Shown here: in pieces, positions 14,331 to 25,374 of the stretch
Numbering within the stretch: the stretch's first letter is position 1
How the letters are laid out: every line of letters begins with the position of its first letter
DNA from: Cyclobacteriaceae bacterium
Lineage (GTDB): Bacteria; Bacteroidota; Bacteroidia; Cytophagales; Cyclobacteriaceae
Direction: 5' to 3'
Length of the DNA: 45,877 nt
Assembly: GCA_029858965.1 (NCBI GenBank)
Contig: JAOUDZ010000029.1
Location: forward strand, 1-45,877
Notes under the pieces: generated by a model
What the model saw: only the letters and a program-made list of their open reading frames with translations
What the model was told of the DNA's origin: nothing
The model's database searches: none
Made by a program: the position numbers and the translations under genes

Positions 14331-15128
14331 ATGCTTATGCTAAATACCTGGCTTCATGAAAAATCCATCGTGATAATCGGAGGAACTACCGGTATAGGGC
14401 TTACCGCAGCGCAGGCATTTGTCGAACATGGTGCCAGGGTTGTGGCGGTAGGTCGGAACCCTGAAAGTGTCGATAAGGCTTCTTCGACGCTCAAAGAAAA
14501 TGGAGTGGCCATGGTAGGTAATGCTGAGCAGCCGGAAACTGCGATAAATGCCATAACCCTGTGCCTCAAGAAATTTGGAGCATTCCATGGACTGTATCAT
14601 GTAGCGGGCGGAAGTGGTCGCAAATTTGGAGATGGTCCACTGCACGAAATGACGTTAGCAGGATGGAACCAGACGCTGTCACTGAATCTAACCTCACTCA
14701 TGCTATCGAATCAGGCTGCCATTAAGGCCTTCCTTGATCAAAAAACTTCGGGTACAATTTTGAACATGGGCTCTGTATTGGGATTCTCACCTTCGCCAAA
14801 CTATTTTGTTACGCATGCCTATGCCGCCACTAAATCAGCAGTAATTGGATTCTCCAAAGCTATCGCATCTTATTATGCGGCCAGCAACATCAGAATTAAC
14901 GTGTTGGCACCCGCACTTGTAGAAACCCCGATGGCAAAACGTGCTGCTGCCGATGAAAGCATTATGCATTTCATTAAAACAAAACAACCGCTGGATGGCG
15001 GGCGTATTGGCCTGCCTGCAGACTTAAACGGTGCGGCAGTATATTTCATGTCTGATTATTCCAGCTTTACAACAGGTCAGGTACTGTCCGTCGATGGAGG
15101 TTGGAGCATAAGTGAAGGTCAATATTAA
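14331..15128 (+). CDS. short-chain dehydrogenase/reductase (SDR)
   Basis: This NAD(P)-dependent oxidoreductase of about 265 residues has a classic SDR layout. It has the cofactor loop GGTTGIGL near the N-terminus, the catalytic Ser in NMGSVLG, and YAATK with the catalytic Tyr and Lys. The C-terminal stretch TTGQVLSVDGGWS is typical. ATG at 14331 or 14337 is possible; both give a normal N-terminus. It is the first gene of a tight operon, with the ROK gene beginning 9 bases after its stop. In context it may oxidise or reduce a sugar or sugar acid that the following enzymes process. The substrate is unknown. Confidence 0.92.
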   Translation: MLMLNTWLHEKSIVIIGGTTGIGLTAAQAFVEHGARVVAVGRNPESVDKASSTLKENGVAMVGNAEQPETAINAITLCLKKFGAFHGLYHVAGGSGRKFGDGPLHEMTLAGWNQTLSLNLTSLMLSNQAAIKAFLDQKTSGTILNMGSVLGFSPSPNYFVTHAYAATKSAVIGFSKAIASYYAASNIRINVLAPALVETPMAKRAAADESIMHFIKTKQPLDGGRIGLPADLNGAAVYFMSDYSSFTTGQVLSVDGGWSISEGQY

Positions 15129-15137
15129 TATTTAACC

Positions 15138-16031
15138 ATGCAGTCGCTTGCCATCGGAATTGATTTGGGATCTACTAACATCAAAGGTATTTTGATGGAC
15201 ACCGAAGGAAACATTCTGCAGGAGGCAAAGCACGAAACGAACGAGCAGGACGACGCCCAATGGAAACAAACAGTCTTCGAAATGATTGCGGATTTTAAGG
15301 CAAAGGCTGGTGGAAAAGTTGATGCGATAGGATTGTCGGCTCCTGGTCTTGCGGACACCGAAAACACATGCATTGAATACATGCCTGAAAGGCTGCCCGG
15401 TATTGAGAACTTTACATGGTCTGATTGGATAGGAGAAAAAGTATCCGTTTTAAATGATGCCCATGCAGCGATGATGGCGGAAGCAACATTCGGCGCCGCC
15501 AAGGGACTTCAGCATGCAATATTACTTTCCCTGGGTACAGGTGTTGGCGGGGGCCTTTTGCTCCATGGTAAACTGTACCAGGGTATTTCCCAAATGGCCG
15601 GGCACATTGGACACACTACGGTTAATGCAGAAACTGCATGGCGCGATATCACAAACATGCCAGGCAGTATTGAAGATGCAATAGGCAATGCAACCTTGTC
15701 GCAACGCTCATACGGAAAATTTAACTCGACGGAAGAGCTGGTAAAAAGTTTCAGCAAGGGCGACCACTTTGCAACTTGGCTGTGGCTTTCTTCGGTGCAG
15801 AAACTAGCGGTATGTATAGCCTCAGCAATAAATATTATTTCGCCGGAAGCCGTGATCTTAAGTGGCGGCATTATCCAGGCTGATCATTTATTGCTGGATC
15901 CGCTTGAGGATTTTCTTGACCTTTACGAATGGCGTCCGGGTGGAAAGAAGACGGCGATTAAATTCGCACATTTTTCTGATCGTGCCGGCGCCATTGGCGC
16001 AGCTGGTTTTGCAATTTCCAAAATGAAATGA
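15138..16031 (+). CDS. ROK-family sugar kinase-like protein lacking the zinc cysteines
   Basis: This 297-residue protein has the phosphate-binding N-terminus GIDLGSTNIKG, the catalytic Asp in LNDAHAA (D107), and the LGTGVGGGL loop (residues 132-140), so an ATP-dependent sugar kinase fold is clear. ROK kinases normally continue from GHxxH into a CxCGxxGC zinc motif. Here GHIGH (155-159) is present, but residues 163-180 contain no Cys, so the zinc site is missing. No helix-turn-helix is present, which argues against a repressor. The next gene starts after 7 bases. It probably phosphorylates an unusual sugar or amino sugar in the pathway encoded by this operon. Confidence 0.88.
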   Translation: MQSLAIGIDLGSTNIKGILMDTEGNILQEAKHETNEQDDAQWKQTVFEMIADFKAKAGGKVDAIGLSAPGLADTENTCIEYMPERLPGIENFTWSDWIGEKVSVLNDAHAAMMAEATFGAAKGLQHAILLSLGTGVGGGLLLHGKLYQGISQMAGHIGHTTVNAETAWRDITNMPGSIEDAIGNATLSQRSYGKFNSTEELVKSFSKGDHFATWLWLSSVQKLAVCIASAINIISPEAVILSGGIIQADHLLLDPLEDFLDLYEWRPGGKKTAIKFAHFSDRAGAIGAAGFAISKMK

Positions 16032-16038
16032 TTATCCC

Positions 16039-16821
16039 ATGACACCCACCCAAGATTATATACAGAAATGCCGGCACCTTATAGAAATTGTATCGAAACA
16101 GGAGGGCCTCATCAAAGAGGCGGCTCAATTTTTTTCGCAGACTATTCTCGCGGGAAGAATGGTACATGTTTTCGGTTCCGGGCACAGTCGCATTATGGTG
16201 GAGGAAATGTGGCCACGTTATGGTTCCTTTCCCGGATTCAACCCAATCGTAGAACTGTCTTTAACATTCCATAACCTGGTGGTGGGCGCAAATGGTCAAA
16301 GACAAGCTATGTTTTTAGAAAATACGGTTGGTTTGGCCGAGCGAATACTCCGCAACTTTGATGTTACCAAGCAAGACACAGCGCTAATCATTTCCTCCAG
16401 TGGCTGCAATGTTGTACCGATTGAGATGGCAGAAATCTTTGGCTCAAAAGGCATCCGCGTTGTGGCGATCATTACGCGGGAGCACGCTGAAAAAAGCAAA
16501 AGTAAACGCGCAGACGGAAAAAAACTCAGTGACTTCGCTGACCTGGTGCTGGACACAGGTGCTCCGGTAGGCGACGCGATGGTGTACATCAACGGATTGG
16601 ATACGCCTGTTTCCCCCGGCTCTACCGTTGGAGGTGCCATGATCATCAATTGCATCAAAGCTGAGGTTGCAAAAATACTTTCAGAGAATGGACAGCCTCC
16701 CAGGGTCCTGAGCGCTGCCGCAGTTGTGGGCGAGAAGAGAGCGATTGAATTATTTGAGGGAGCTTACGATGAGCATGCACATCGACTCGCCCGACTATAC
16801 GAAAAAGCAGGAAAGCCCTAA
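16039..16821 (+). CDS. SIS-domain sugar-phosphate isomerase-like protein (UPF0309-like)
   Basis: This 260-residue cytosolic protein has an N-terminal helical segment and one SIS domain: VHVFGSGHSRIM forms the first nucleotide-fold strand and loop, and ALIISSSGCNVVPIEMA the Ser-rich phosphosugar loop. The length and the conserved C-terminal helix with HAHRLARLYE resemble UPF0309-type SIS proteins. SIS domains bind phosphorylated sugars and often catalyse aldose/ketose isomerisation or deamination. Following a ROK kinase by 7 bases, it is a good candidate to act on the kinase product. The precise reaction is not known. Confidence 0.88.
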   Translation: MTPTQDYIQKCRHLIEIVSKQEGLIKEAAQFFSQTILAGRMVHVFGSGHSRIMVEEMWPRYGSFPGFNPIVELSLTFHNLVVGANGQRQAMFLENTVGLAERILRNFDVTKQDTALIISSSGCNVVPIEMAEIFGSKGIRVVAIITREHAEKSKSKRADGKKLSDFADLVLDTGAPVGDAMVYINGLDTPVSPGSTVGGAMIINCIKAEVAKILSENGQPPRVLSAAAVVGEKRAIELFEGAYDEHAHRLARLYEKAGKP

Positions 16822-16832
16822 ACAGAAACACT

Positions 16833-17861
16833 ATGCAACCTATACCCCTTCGAACGACGGTCATCGGTAGTTATCCTTTCCCGGGATGGCTTGAATTTGC
16901 CGTGAAGAACCTGCACGAATTCGGAAATGCAGACAAAGACGAAATGATTGAAGATGCTGTTATCGCAGCCATCCATGATCAGGTCACTGCCGGATTGGAC
17001 GTGATCACCGATGGGGAACAGACAAGGCTGGATTTTAATCTTTCTTTTTACGGATACCTCAGGGGAATAAAAGAAAATACCGACGATTTGCGCCGGTGGG
17101 GACCCGCTGCACACGATCAACGTGGAAAAAATTCAATTGTGGATAGCATCACGGCGCCAAACGGACTGGGTGTCGTAAAAGAATTTCAGCGATTGCAAAG
17201 ACTGGCCCCTGCCGGCCCGACATTAAAGGCCAGTGTTCCAGGCCCGTACACATTAAGTGGCCGGTTACTGCCCAACGCACAGTATAAGGACCGGTACGCT
17301 ATCACCGAAGCATTGTTGCCGTTTGTGAAAAGGGAACTGGAAGATTTAGTTGCGGCGGGTTGCACGGAAATTACTGTAGACGAACCATCGATGAGTTGCT
17401 ATGCCTACAAGGAAGACACCAAACGTTTTGTTGATATCTTTAACCGCACAGTAGGTTCGATCCAGGGCAAGTGCAGACTCTCAACCCATTTGTGTTTCGG
17501 AAACTTCAAAGGCAGGCCGGTGGGCTATCGCAGCATCGCCCCCATGCTACCGGATTTTCTTGATCTTAAAATAGATGAGGTACATGTTGAGATGGCAAAC
17601 CGGGAGTTTGCCGAAGTGGAGTTGATAGCGGAATTTGCACAAAAAATGGATGTAGCCGTGGGCATCATTGATGTGAAAAACTATTACATCGAGACGGTAG
17701 ACGATGTCGTGGCGCGAATTAAAAAATGCCTGGCTTTTATACCCGCTGAGAAACTGGCAATAGCACCCGACTGTGGATTAAGCCAGACTGCACGTTGGGC
17801 ATCACGCCAAAAGCTCATCAACATGGTGAGGGGCGTAAAAAAAGTAAGGGAGAATCTATAA
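16833..17861 (+). CDS. core MetE-like zinc enzyme (cobalamin-independent methionine synthase II family)
   Basis: This 342-residue protein corresponds to the C-terminal catalytic barrel of MetE only. The zinc ligands of the family are all visible: H219 and C221 in STHLCFGN, E253 in HVEMANRE and C314 in APDCGLSQ. The N-terminal motif IGSYPFP and VITDGEQTR also match. Core MetE-like proteins can transfer methyl groups to thiols, and a relative acts in coenzyme M conjugation of epoxides, so the zinc probably activates a thiol. Its location inside a sugar-kinase/isomerase operon argues for a catabolic or salvage role rather than bulk methionine synthesis. Substrate unknown. Confidence 0.9.
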   Translation: MQPIPLRTTVIGSYPFPGWLEFAVKNLHEFGNADKDEMIEDAVIAAIHDQVTAGLDVITDGEQTRLDFNLSFYGYLRGIKENTDDLRRWGPAAHDQRGKNSIVDSITAPNGLGVVKEFQRLQRLAPAGPTLKASVPGPYTLSGRLLPNAQYKDRYAITEALLPFVKRELEDLVAAGCTEITVDEPSMSCYAYKEDTKRFVDIFNRTVGSIQGKCRLSTHLCFGNFKGRPVGYRSIAPMLPDFLDLKIDEVHVEMANREFAEVELIAEFAQKMDVAVGIIDVKNYYIETVDDVVARIKKCLAFIPAEKLAIAPDCGLSQTARWASRQKLINMVRGVKKVRENL

Positions 17862-17862
17862 A

Positions 17863-18726
17863 ATGATGGCTACATCCGGATTAATCCCAGCGTATTGCAA
17901 AGGCCCTGCATTGCAAAAAGAAATTCACAGCGTAATGAAGAATGCCGGCACTGATCAGCTTGATATCTGGTGGATGGGGCAAAGCGGATTTCTGGTGCAT
18001 TGGAATGGCCGTTGTATTCTTTTTGATCCTTACCTGTCCGATTCATTGACGAAGAAATACGCAGACACACCTAAGCCACATGTTCGGATGAGCGAGTTAG
18101 TTATTGCACCGGAATTGCTGGATATGGTTGACATCATTACTTCCAGTCATAACCATACGGATCACCTGGATGCAGAAACCTTAATGCCACTGCTGCGTGT
18201 TAACCCCGAAATCGCGTTTATCATCCCGGAAGCCAATCGCTCGTTTATAAGTGATCGAATAAAATGTAATCAAGATTTTCCTATCGGCCTTACCGATGGC
18301 GGAAAGATTGAATTGAAAGGTTTCACATTTCACGGCGTACCTGCCGCGCACAACACTATCGAACGCGATGCGGAGGGGCAATGTAAATTTATGGGCTTTG
18401 TTGTTCAGTTTGGCAAATGGACAATTTATCACAGTGGCGATACCTTGTGGTATAATGGCATGGTTGACATGCTCAAACCATTTCATATTGACATCGCTTT
18501 TTTGCCCATCAATGGAAACGACCCTGCCCGGCGGGTCGCCGGAAACCTGAATGCACAGGAAGCCGCACAGCTTGGCCACCAGATCGGCGCAAAAGTGGTC
18601 ATTCCTCATCATTACCACATGTTTGCATTCAACACTGCGGATCCAAATGATTTTGCTGCAGCGGCAGCATCATTGCAGCAGCCTTTCCGGGTTTTGCAGT
18701 TAGGAGAGCATTCCATTTTTACGTGA
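17863..18726 (+). CDS. UlaG-like metallo-beta-lactamase-fold hydrolase
   Basis: This 287-residue protein has the metal motif SHNHTDH (H96, H98, D100, H101) and the later metal ligands in AAHNT and HSGDT. The overall pattern, with WWMGQSGFLV near the N-terminus, resembles UlaG-type L-ascorbate-6-phosphate lactonases and related sugar lactone hydrolases. The gene begins one base after the stop of the MetE-like gene, the tightest junction in the operon. A lactonase would fit an SDR that makes a sugar lactone, but the assignment of substrate is inference. Start: two adjacent ATGs at 17863 and 17866 are equally good. Confidence 0.9.
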   Translation: MMATSGLIPAYCKGPALQKEIHSVMKNAGTDQLDIWWMGQSGFLVHWNGRCILFDPYLSDSLTKKYADTPKPHVRMSELVIAPELLDMVDIITSSHNHTDHLDAETLMPLLRVNPEIAFIIPEANRSFISDRIKCNQDFPIGLTDGGKIELKGFTFHGVPAAHNTIERDAEGQCKFMGFVVQFGKWTIYHSGDTLWYNGMVDMLKPFHIDIAFLPINGNDPARRVAGNLNAQEAAQLGHQIGAKVVIPHHYHMFAFNTADPNDFAAAAASLQQPFRVLQLGEHSIFT

Positions 18727-23484: not shown

Positions 23485-25374
23485 TTGGTTTCTAGATCCT
23501 CAAATCAATTCCACGTGGGAGCGTTTTTCAGAAAGCAGCAAAGCGTTAAGCTCTACGAAAGATTTTGCCTTGTCGCTTTGTGCTTCTTTCTATCCAATTG
23601 CCTGAATGACAACGCGCCTTTTCCTACAATACCAAATGCACCTGGCATCTATATCGCGGGCTATGAGCGAAAAAACCCTTTTGCTACCTATTGGAAGAAT
23701 AGTATACAGGTGCAACTCACCAATGGCTCAATGGAGGCAGAGGTAACCGCGATGGCTGTGTCGGGGGATGATGTTTATCTTATAGGCGTTGAAGGAGGTA
23801 CAACTAAGTATTGGAAGAACGGTGTCGCGGCAAACCTTTCCAAAGATGAATCCGATTACATTGGGGCAGTGGCCATTGCGCTGGGGGATAACGACGCGTA
23901 TGTAGCCGGATTCGGAACTACGGCTGCAGGTATTACGGCCAAATACTGGAAGAATGGTGTTGGCATAAGTCTTACGGATGGTTCAAGCGACGCTATTGCA
24001 TTGGGCATTACCATCTCCCAAGCCGATGTTTACGTTTCGGGAATTGAAAAATCTAGCGCTGTGTACTGGAAGAACGGAGTTCCGGTTTTCCTCACAGATG
24101 GTTCTTCCCCTGCTGGCGCCAACGCTATTGCCTTGTCAGGAACGGATGTATATGTTGCGGGTTACGAAGATGGTGTTGCCAAATACTGGAAGAATGGCAT
24201 CGCAGTAAATCTCACGAATGGCACAACATCTGACGCCAACGCAACATCAATTGTGTTGTCCGGGAATGACGTTTACGTAGCGGGCTATGAAGGCTTCACC
24301 GTTAAGTACTGGAAAAATGGAACCGCAGTAGCTCTGCCGGGTGGCGACACCAGATATCCGCCTACCATAGCCTTATCAGGAGATGACGTGTACGTCTCAG
24401 GAAAAGTTCAGAACCTTGCGGCCTATTGGAAGAACGGTCTCGCTGTGACTTTTGGAGACAATGGTAATACAACTTACGCTACATCGGTAGCGGTATCAGG
24501 AACCGATGTCTATTTGGCCGTTAATGAAGACCCAAGGTCGGTAGCGAAGTACTGGAAGGATGGTATGGCTGTTAACCTCACCGACGGATTGCAAGAGGCA
24601 ATTGCTTCCCAAATCGCAGTTTCGGGGAATGATATCTACGTAGGCGGCAGTGAAGGTGGTGTTATGAAGTACTGGAAAAACGGCGTAGCAACAAACATCA
24701 TAGATGGTCCGGATTACAAAATGTTTCTCACCGTGTCAGGCAATGATTTATTTATTGTCGGTAATAGAGGAAATGTGATAACATACTGGAAGAACAATAA
24801 CGCGCCGCTGCCAATTACGAATGGCTCAAAAGCTGATCGCGCCACGTCAATAGCTGTGTCAGGAAATAATGTATATGTCGCGGGTTATGAAGGTAACTTT
24901 GCCAAGTACTGGAAGGATGGTAAGGAAGTATACCTTTCCGATGGCTCGAAGCAAGAACGTACGGGCGCTATCGCAGTATCAGGAGACGATGTTTACGTTG
25001 CGGGGGTGGAAATAGTTAATCAAATTGGTATTGCCAAATTGTGGAAAAACGGTATCGCATCAAATCTGTCCGATGGTTCAACCTGGGCTTATGCAGTATC
25101 CATCGCCATTGCAGGAAATGACGTCTATGTGGCTGGCCGGGAAGGTAATGTTGTAAAGTACTGGAAAAACGGGATAGCCGTTAACCTTACGGATGGATCA
25201 ACCGGGGACAATGTTACTTCCATCGCAGTATTGGAAAATGATGTGTATTTGGCCGGTCATGAAGCAATAATAGGCGGCAGTTACATTGCCAAATTCTGGA
25301 AAAATGGAATCGAAACAAATCTCACTGATGGCTCAAGCTATGCTGTAGCAGGATCAATCGTTGCCGTGAAGTAG
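23485..25374 (+). CDS. lipoprotein with fourteen YWKNG repeats, probable double beta-propeller
   Basis: This is an open reading of up to 629 residues. After a hydrophobic leader ending FFLSNC (probable lipidation site), the protein consists of about fourteen repeats of roughly 40-45 residues. Each repeat has the pattern IAVSGNDVYVAGYE, then a short loop, then KYWKNGIAVNLTDGS. Fourteen units would fit two seven-bladed propellers. There is no ATG before the leader, so translation must start at TTG 23485, GTG 23515 or another rare codon, or the true 5' end is altered. The first in-frame Met lies well inside the repeats. It is likely surface-anchored; function unknown. Confidence 0.8.
   Translation: MVSRSSNQFHVGAFFRKQQSVKLYERFCLVALCFFLSNCLNDNAPFPTIPNAPGIYIAGYERKNPFATYWKNSIQVQLTNGSMEAEVTAMAVSGDDVYLIGVEGGTTKYWKNGVAANLSKDESDYIGAVAIALGDNDAYVAGFGTTAAGITAKYWKNGVGISLTDGSSDAIALGITISQADVYVSGIEKSSAVYWKNGVPVFLTDGSSPAGANAIALSGTDVYVAGYEDGVAKYWKNGIAVNLTNGTTSDANATSIVLSGNDVYVAGYEGFTVKYWKNGTAVALPGGDTRYPPTIALSGDDVYVSGKVQNLAAYWKNGLAVTFGDNGNTTYATSVAVSGTDVYLAVNEDPRSVAKYWKDGMAVNLTDGLQEAIASQIAVSGNDIYVGGSEGGVMKYWKNGVATNIIDGPDYKMFLTVSGNDLFIVGNRGNVITYWKNNNAPLPITNGSKADRATSIAVSGNNVYVAGYEGNFAKYWKDGKEVYLSDGSKQERTGAIAVSGDDVYVAGVEIVNQIGIAKLWKNGIASNLSDGSTWAYAVSIAIAGNDVYVAGREGNVVKYWKNGIAVNLTDGSTGDNVTSIAVLENDVYLAGHEAIIGGSYIAKFWKNGIETNLTDGSSYAVAGSIVAVK

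Follow-up and report, generated by a model that had tools for sequence, protein, structure and literature searches.

A core MetE-like enzyme in a conserved, patchily distributed sugar-type operon of Bacteroidota, with a tentative role in the breakdown of methylated amino sugars

What does a core MetE-like zinc enzyme do among the enzymes of a sugar-type operon? The question is raised by a Cyclobacteriaceae bacterium (assembly GCA_029858965.1, contig JAOUDZ010000029.1, positions 1-45,877 of the forward strand, the whole of this stretch being the window referred to here), in which genes for an SDR-family oxidoreductase, a ROK-family kinase, a SIS-domain protein, a core MetE and a metallo-beta-lactamase-fold (MBL) hydrolase follow each other on the plus strand with gaps of 9, 7, 11 and 1 bases (Table 1). 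The strongest statement that our analysis supports is that these genes form a real, conserved and patchily distributed set of catabolic type in Bacteroidota, in which the core MetE takes part. With a probability of roughly one in three, as judged from sequence comparison, the set would break down a methylated amino-sugar-type compound, and MetE would transfer a methyl group to homocysteine.

The open reading frame list agreed exactly with the spacing given in the initial annotation, and Pfam and NCBIfam returned the same families that it had named, with the UlaG-like protein placed in the MBL fold. The interior of the operon lacks a transporter or regulator gene, as had also been noted, and no cut-off was exceeded by the SDR for the 25 of 223 NCBIfam families that were shown. 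Relatives' loci are labelled L, sampled genomes G (the host being G000) and contigs C.

Table 1 Genes of the operon and two further genes, with their positions in the window
Product	Position	Strand	Family evidence
SDR-family oxidoreductase, 265 aa	14331-15128	+	PF13561 4.9e-47, PF00106 (Pfam)
ROK-family kinase, 297 aa, probable sugar kinase	15138-16031	+	PF00480 1.1e-44 (Pfam)
SIS-domain phosphosugar enzyme, 260 aa, UPF0309/PRK02947 group	16039-16821	+	SIS_2 PF13580 3.3e-31 (Pfam); NF002805 261 bits, cut-off 135 (NCBIfam)
Core MetE-like zinc enzyme, 342 aa, without N-terminal folate domain	16833-17861	+	Meth_synt_2 PF01717 1.5e-29 (Pfam)
UlaG-like MBL-fold hydrolase, 287 aa, possible lactonase	17863-18726	+	PF13483 8.1e-20 (Pfam)
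Adjoining protein, 730 residues	10879-13071	-	No Pfam or NCBIfam match
Protein of 629 residues with many near-repeats around YWKNG	23485-25374	+	

Conservation and distribution of the gene set

A scan with the MetE protein, using one genome per species, confirmed 223 relatives, and the loci of the best 80 of the 223 (75-92% identical) were used, all from Bacteroidota groups by their record titles, bar one 'uncultured bacterium'. These loci were fetched using MetE, which is hence present in 80/80 by design, and related species are not independent; at an identity floor of 40%, SDR was present in 62 loci, ROK in 67, SIS in 71 and MBL in 72. Where the flanks sufficed (5 kb or more upstream of MetE and 2.5 kb or more downstream, n=53), the full set was found in 49/53 relatives, the incomplete ones being without MBL (L068 and L078), without ROK (L072), or without SDR, ROK and SIS on the stretch (L020); a genome with the same sequence as L020 (G126) carries SDR and SIS on a different contig. 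In 56/80 loci the genes run as SDR-ROK-SIS-MetE-MBL on a single strand, in 39 of them within 5.3 kb, and two further loci (L044 and L056) hold all five genes in the order MetE-MBL-SDR-ROK-SIS. The five genes are a real conserved unit, more than a chance grouping. This conservation supports the proposal in the initial annotation of a sugar-type catabolic unit, which we could match to no described pathway, an idea that survived the search for the five genes side by side in relatives. No prior description of the gene set was recognised among the listings of the openly licensed PMC literature searched; among those listings was one Listeria transcriptome paper.

Across the phylum the set is patchily distributed, with MetE found in 5/198 genomes drawn (E up to 1e-60) and the SIS protein in 20/395 (E up to 1e-50). 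All five MetE genomes of the smaller sample also carry SIS; together with 10 of 15 tested genomes they bring MetE, at 44% identity or more, to 15 of the 20 SIS genomes, those without it being G162, G119, G171, G336 and G313. MBL was found in 14/19 SIS genomes (10 of 15 tested together, plus G000, G091, G126 and G301, with G313 left out), and its presence followed that of MetE, at 14/15 genomes with MetE versus 0/4 tested genomes without (Fisher p 0.0013, from genomes that are related and not independent); G249 is the one genome having MetE but no MBL. MetE, SIS and MBL co-occur even where they are unlinked, as in G371, which carries them on separate contigs. MBL adjoins MetE in G301, and in G249 a Gfo/Idh gene, SDR and MetE form one group.

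Linked genes and the candidate substrate

Genes that accompany the operon in relatives were counted in the 80 loci, the counts being lower bounds, as flanks are truncated and the genes were grouped with single-linkage clustering. A NagB-type hexosamine-6-phosphate deaminase occurs in at least 21 loci, and a Rieske oxygenase and a LacY-like MFS permease in at least eight each; the Rieske loci (8/8) also carry the permease and NagB genes (hypergeometric 7e-6 under independence, a figure that related loci inflate). Other recurrent neighbours encode DoxX-type proteins (at least 20 loci), two Gfo/Idh families (at least 18 and at least 15), GMC oxidoreductases (at least 16), a flavin oxidoreductase (at least seven) and a PTE-type protein (at least five). 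The labels DoxX, GDSL, GH3, DUF1501, DUF1549, DUF2231 and that of the second Gfo/Idh family were given by recall or by eye and are presumptive. The Rieske protein matches structure 4qup, deposited as a monooxygenase/demethylase (8.3e-91) and which we take to be stachydrine demethylase, and its best NCBIfam family by far is GbcA (380.3 of 670 bits, under the equivalog cut-off). Since a hexosamine-6-phosphate deaminase and a GbcA/stachydrine-demethylase-like oxygenase travel with the set, its substrate is suggested to be an amino sugar that undergoes N-demethylation.

The pathway that we tentatively favour would start with phosphorylation of the sugar by the ROK kinase. In MetE, a zinc-activated homocysteine would then take a methyl, its likeliest source being a charged N-methyl (or sulfonium) group, to give methionine; the enzyme would thereby act like a betaine-homocysteine methyltransferase (BHMT) on a MetE scaffold, requiring no folate or cobalamin, and in some relatives the added GbcA-like Rieske oxygenase would take methyl groups off by oxidation. 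As its kept catalytic residues suggest, the SIS protein may abstract the proton at C2 from the sugar phosphate in its open-chain form, in an isomerisation or elimination, SDR and a Gfo/Idh enzyme encoded elsewhere in the host genome could provide a redox step, and MBL could hydrolyse a lactone or similar ester. NagB-type deaminases, whose genes adjoin the operon in some relatives and are located elsewhere in the host genome, would finally convert the end product to fructose-6-phosphate. Both the substrate and the order of these steps are what we infer.

Several observations weigh against this pathway. A Rieske gene was not seen in 72/80 loci (many with short flanks), and NagB-like proteins are universal, occurring in 20/20 SIS genomes, so that NagB is informative by linkage alone; moreover, none of the methylated amino sugars known to us is so common that it would account for the spread of the set. 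ROK proteins usually carry the motifs DxGxT, a catalytic ND, ExGH and CxCGxxGCxE, the last being absent in some ROK enzymes. The window protein has DLGST and LNDA, and the ND pattern is kept in 67/69 aligned proteins; the sugar-binding motif is GHxGH (HxGH for ExGH) in 68/69, the sole exception being a distant Martelella protein, and the Cys zinc motif occurs in 0/69. The motif change suggests, from sequence, an unusual sugar head group, and a His in place of the usual Glu disfavours an ordinary hexosamine as well as a cation at C2. In genomes that lack MetE, SDR-ROK-SIS is kept and is accompanied by genes for a flavin oxidoreductase and a PTE-type protein, so that methyl removal would be dispensable in some versions, unless the flavin enzyme does it. 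Within five plasmid contexts of distant SIS homologs, nag genes adjoin those of Martelella and Planococcus and were not seen beside the other three (Agrobacterium, Vibrio and Lacticaseibacillus). SIS proteins 26-36% identical to the N-acetylglucosamine 6-phosphate (GlcNAc-6P) dehydratase NagS have no or negligible activity on GlcNAc-6P, according to PMC12680351. Finally, the change in MetE at the position of E. coli Trp561, detailed below, is not telling by itself, as the MesD compared has Thr there.

The main rival is a keto- or acid-type sugar without nitrogen, which we consider rather unlikely. SDR and Gfo/Idh would oxidise or reduce a ring carbon, ROK would phosphorylate, SIS would move the carbonyl in the manner of 6-phospho-3-hexuloisomerase, and MBL or a PTE-type enzyme would open a phospho-lactone, with MetE demethylating an O- or S-methyl substituent or handling a by-product. 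The Gfo/Idh family that often precedes SDR speaks for such a route, as an ortholog (59-79% identity) is present in 19/20 SIS genomes versus 6/20 SIS-negative genomes (Fisher 4e-5, with one of the six matches partial, and the SIS-negative genomes being the first listed, mostly near kin and non-random); the six also rule out that the ortholog is exclusive to this system. The host ortholog is unlinked (L130:9134-10321, contig C188 of G000, 64% identity to the query). This rival also draws support from genes of Gfo/Idh, GMC and glycosidase type that lie close to the operon in relatives, from a KDPG-type aldolase in 3/80 loci and from the unusual ROK motif; the glycosidase-type neighbours (PF10091 and GH43 domains by scanning, GH3 by eye) are of too broad a kind to identify a substrate. 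Alkyl O-methyl ethers are poor methyl donors to a zinc thiolate, and the hexosamine-6-phosphate deaminase, the quaternary-amine-type demethylase and the nag neighbours of some SIS homologs all favour amino sugars over this rival.

The lactone step of the rival draws on the PTE-type protein, which matches a phospho-furanose lactonase family (E 1e-53; 183 of 630 bits) as well as solved PTE-family structures, so that MBL and PTE are two plausible lactonases. In genomes that lack MetE and in Spirosoma, Haliscomenobacter and Persicobacter, where the search covered plasmids only, SIS is followed by the flavin oxidoreductase and the PTE-type gene, with one further gene in between on the Spirosoma plasmid; the plasmid PTE-type genes are annotated as aryldialkylphosphatase. 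Both genes are present in the MetE-lacking loci L112 and L113, and the flavin gene alone on the short contig of L109; L110 is too short a stretch to judge, and L122 (G313) yielded no gene map that could be used. The flavin oxidoreductase had no match in the search of solved structures. MetE plus MBL and flavin oxidoreductase plus PTE are ruled out as strict substitutes, as genes from the two pairs occur together in Larkinella loci and in L114. In G371, too, flavin oxidoreductase and PTE genes adjoin SIS, with MetE and MBL elsewhere in the genome.

Residues H96, H98, D100, H101, H190, D193 and H250 of MBL are invariant in 48/48 sequences, four alphaproteobacterial relatives included. Its nearest NCBIfam families, PRK00685 and UlaG, were both below cut-off (50.4 vs 306 bits for UlaG), and the structures closest to its predicted model (predicted local distance difference test, pLDDT, 92.2) are 3bv6 and UlaG 2wyl, followed by small metal-dependent hydrolases and NAPE-PLD. 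On the alphaproteobacterial plasmids (L099, L100, L102 and L104) the MBL relative lies in a different, recurrent sugar cluster, with genes annotated as glucose-6-phosphate isomerase, shikimate dehydrogenase and phosphoglycerate dehydrogenase, and a KDPG-type aldolase in 3/4.

Some further features were seen around these loci. A block of four genes (DUF1549-type cytochrome, DUF1501-type, TIM-barrel and DUF2231-type, all by eye) adjoins the operon in nine relatives (L005, L008, L009, L010, L012, L014, L015, L041 and L057); it lies between SIS and MetE in L057, and its first gene was not clustered in L015. In f36, a family of the phylum that is less closely related (L088, L117, L118, L119 and L120), several large genes for secreted- or outer-membrane-looking proteins recur beside SIS, with MetE on the same contig, which gives the impression of a common unit. 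In the window, consensus scans for promoters and terminators gave matches no commoner than in shuffled sequence, and ARAGORN found no tRNA.

The MetE-like and SIS active sites

PF01717 covers residues 7-333 of the 342 of MetE, corresponding to the catalytic domain. In an alignment of 82 sequences, two of them merely 44% and 47% identical, the zinc ligands H219, C221, E253 and C314 and the homocysteine residues S13, E62 and D183 are invariant (82/82). The column of E. coli MetE Trp561, a folate-stacking residue, is Arg in all 82 (Arg144 in the window protein); with Thr in the compared MesD and Trp in a haloarchaeal protein, this change alone cannot exclude a synthase. Identity is 30% to that MesD and to the haloarchaeal protein, and 25% to both E. 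coli MetE and a second core MetE of the host; 41 polar or aromatic residues are specific to the family versus these four sequences. From this pattern we infer a homocysteine-using methyl transfer, probably with a special donor. With the zinc/homocysteine site intact, one-carbon transfer in sugar catabolism is plausible, and this part of the modified-sugar proposal in the initial annotation stands. It is possible, if doubtful, that the protein represents a catabolic branch of core MetE that is no methionine synthase and that, independently of folate, cobalamin and MesX, hands a methyl directly to homocysteine from a methylated (amino) sugar bearing a phosphate.

The same proposal had named a thio- or S-methyl sugar, and this part found no support. 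MetE would in that case act on the sulfur of such a sugar, or of another sulfur sugar, or add a thiol to an electrophilic sugar intermediate, which we regard as improbable. The MetE fold is that of a zinc-thiol enzyme with its site intact, its AlphaFold model (pLDDT 88.6) has a weaker fold match to the Methanosarcina methyltransferase 4ay7, and a sulfatase (L097) and a SUMF1/EgtB-type gene (L096) were each seen once near a relative. These sulfur-related annotations are isolated, C-S enzymes were not found among the recurrent neighbour families scanned, and the linked genes indicate an amino sugar and N-demethylation; since the homocysteine residues are invariant, homocysteine is favoured as the acceptor in the MetE site.

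There is also a small chance that MetE is an ordinary folate-independent methionine synthase, located in a sugar operon and without a step there. Its active-site residues are those of methionine synthase, and the structure closest to its model is 3rpd, termed a MesD in PMC7857596. An ordinary synthase fits poorly with a neighbourhood kept in 49/53 relatives and with the co-occurrence of MetE, SIS and MBL where unlinked. The host furthermore has a protein resembling the homocysteine-binding part of the B12-type methionine synthase MetH, and a second homocysteine S-methyltransferase-type protein; MesX was not found in G000 by a search that recovered it in the L123 record as a positive control. 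Because a MetH-type protein is present and MesX was not found, the window MetE is unlikely to be the housekeeping methionine synthase of the host. The second core MetE (L089:8909-9904, contig C184 of G000) shares its zinc and homocysteine residues with the window MetE, and its mapped neighbours include no genes of sugar type.

The SIS protein is 29% identical to NagS over 215 residues. In a survey of 71 close sequences in NagS numbering, the equivalents of H53, S54, R64 and E94 are kept in 68 (3 gaps), that of D179 in 71, S119 in 69 (2 gaps) and S121 in 61 (8 Gly, 2 gaps), and changing H53, R64, E94 or D179 abolishes NagS activity according to PMC12680351. Ser91 is replaced by Gln in all 68 sequences with a residue there (3 gaps), and Asn228 is kept in 13/71, the window protein having Gln and Ala, respectively; these residues rule out a pure NagS identity. 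An oxidative amino-sugar route, in which SIS would dehydrate an N-acyl-hexosamine-6-phosphate like NagS, SDR make a lactone, MBL open it and an aldolase cleave the acid, with MetE tidying a side product, gains from the kept catalytic residues and from the lactonase- and aldolase-type genes that occur, yet has only a slim chance given the Ser91 and Asn228 changes, the inactivity of SIS proteins at this distance from NagS on GlcNAc-6P, and a MetE that is left unexplained.

If a catabolic MetE demethylase as in the favoured pathway proves true, sugar breakdown would be tied to methionine supply in many environmental Bacteroidota, and with a sugar as the donor there would be a new link from carbohydrate breakdown to one-carbon metabolism in common environmental bacteria. 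A conserved, uncharacterised sugar pathway would also gain a clear first test.

Comparison with known systems

UlaG, an ascorbate-6-phosphate lactonase, shares with the window MBL the predicted fold and the His/Asp pattern of the metal site, and differs in an identity of about 20% in the structural match and in the NCBIfam cut-off for UlaG, which MBL fails. BHMT belongs to a protein family other than MetE, and the likeness to BHMT and GbcAB is one of function, namely a proposed chemistry in which homocysteine receives a methyl that was bound to a charged nitrogen, or a Rieske enzyme removes it oxidatively; the window system differs in its substrate, which is probably a sugar derivative. Known bacteria demethylate betaine via GbcAB or via a homocysteine methyltransferase, as described in PMC12478193, and by analogy these solutions are the same pair as proposed here for the window system and its relatives. 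NagS and the window SIS both belong to the SIS/UPF0309 group and have most catalytic residues in common; the window protein lies under the 58.7% identity that bounds the NagS group, from Streptomycetaceae, in PMC12680351, its substrate residues are changed and its neighbourhood is another one.

The closest comparison for MetE is with the four core families MesA-MesD, which PMC7857596 describes by their role in methionine synthesis, naming the zinc ligands HCEC and residues S433, E484 and D599; the word 'sugar' is absent from its main text. The single MetE catalytic domain, the zinc ligands and the homocysteine residues are common to these families and the window protein. At 30% identity to the Acinetobacter MesD (L123), the window protein is under the MesD threshold of about 72% identity to ACIAD3523 given there, and MesX was not found in its host. 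The methyl-group source of core MetE proteins is stated as unknown in the same text, and the family described here would offer a concrete candidate answer; it differs from MesA-MesD, of which a MesD was the one compared directly, in that the window MetE sits in a sugar operon.

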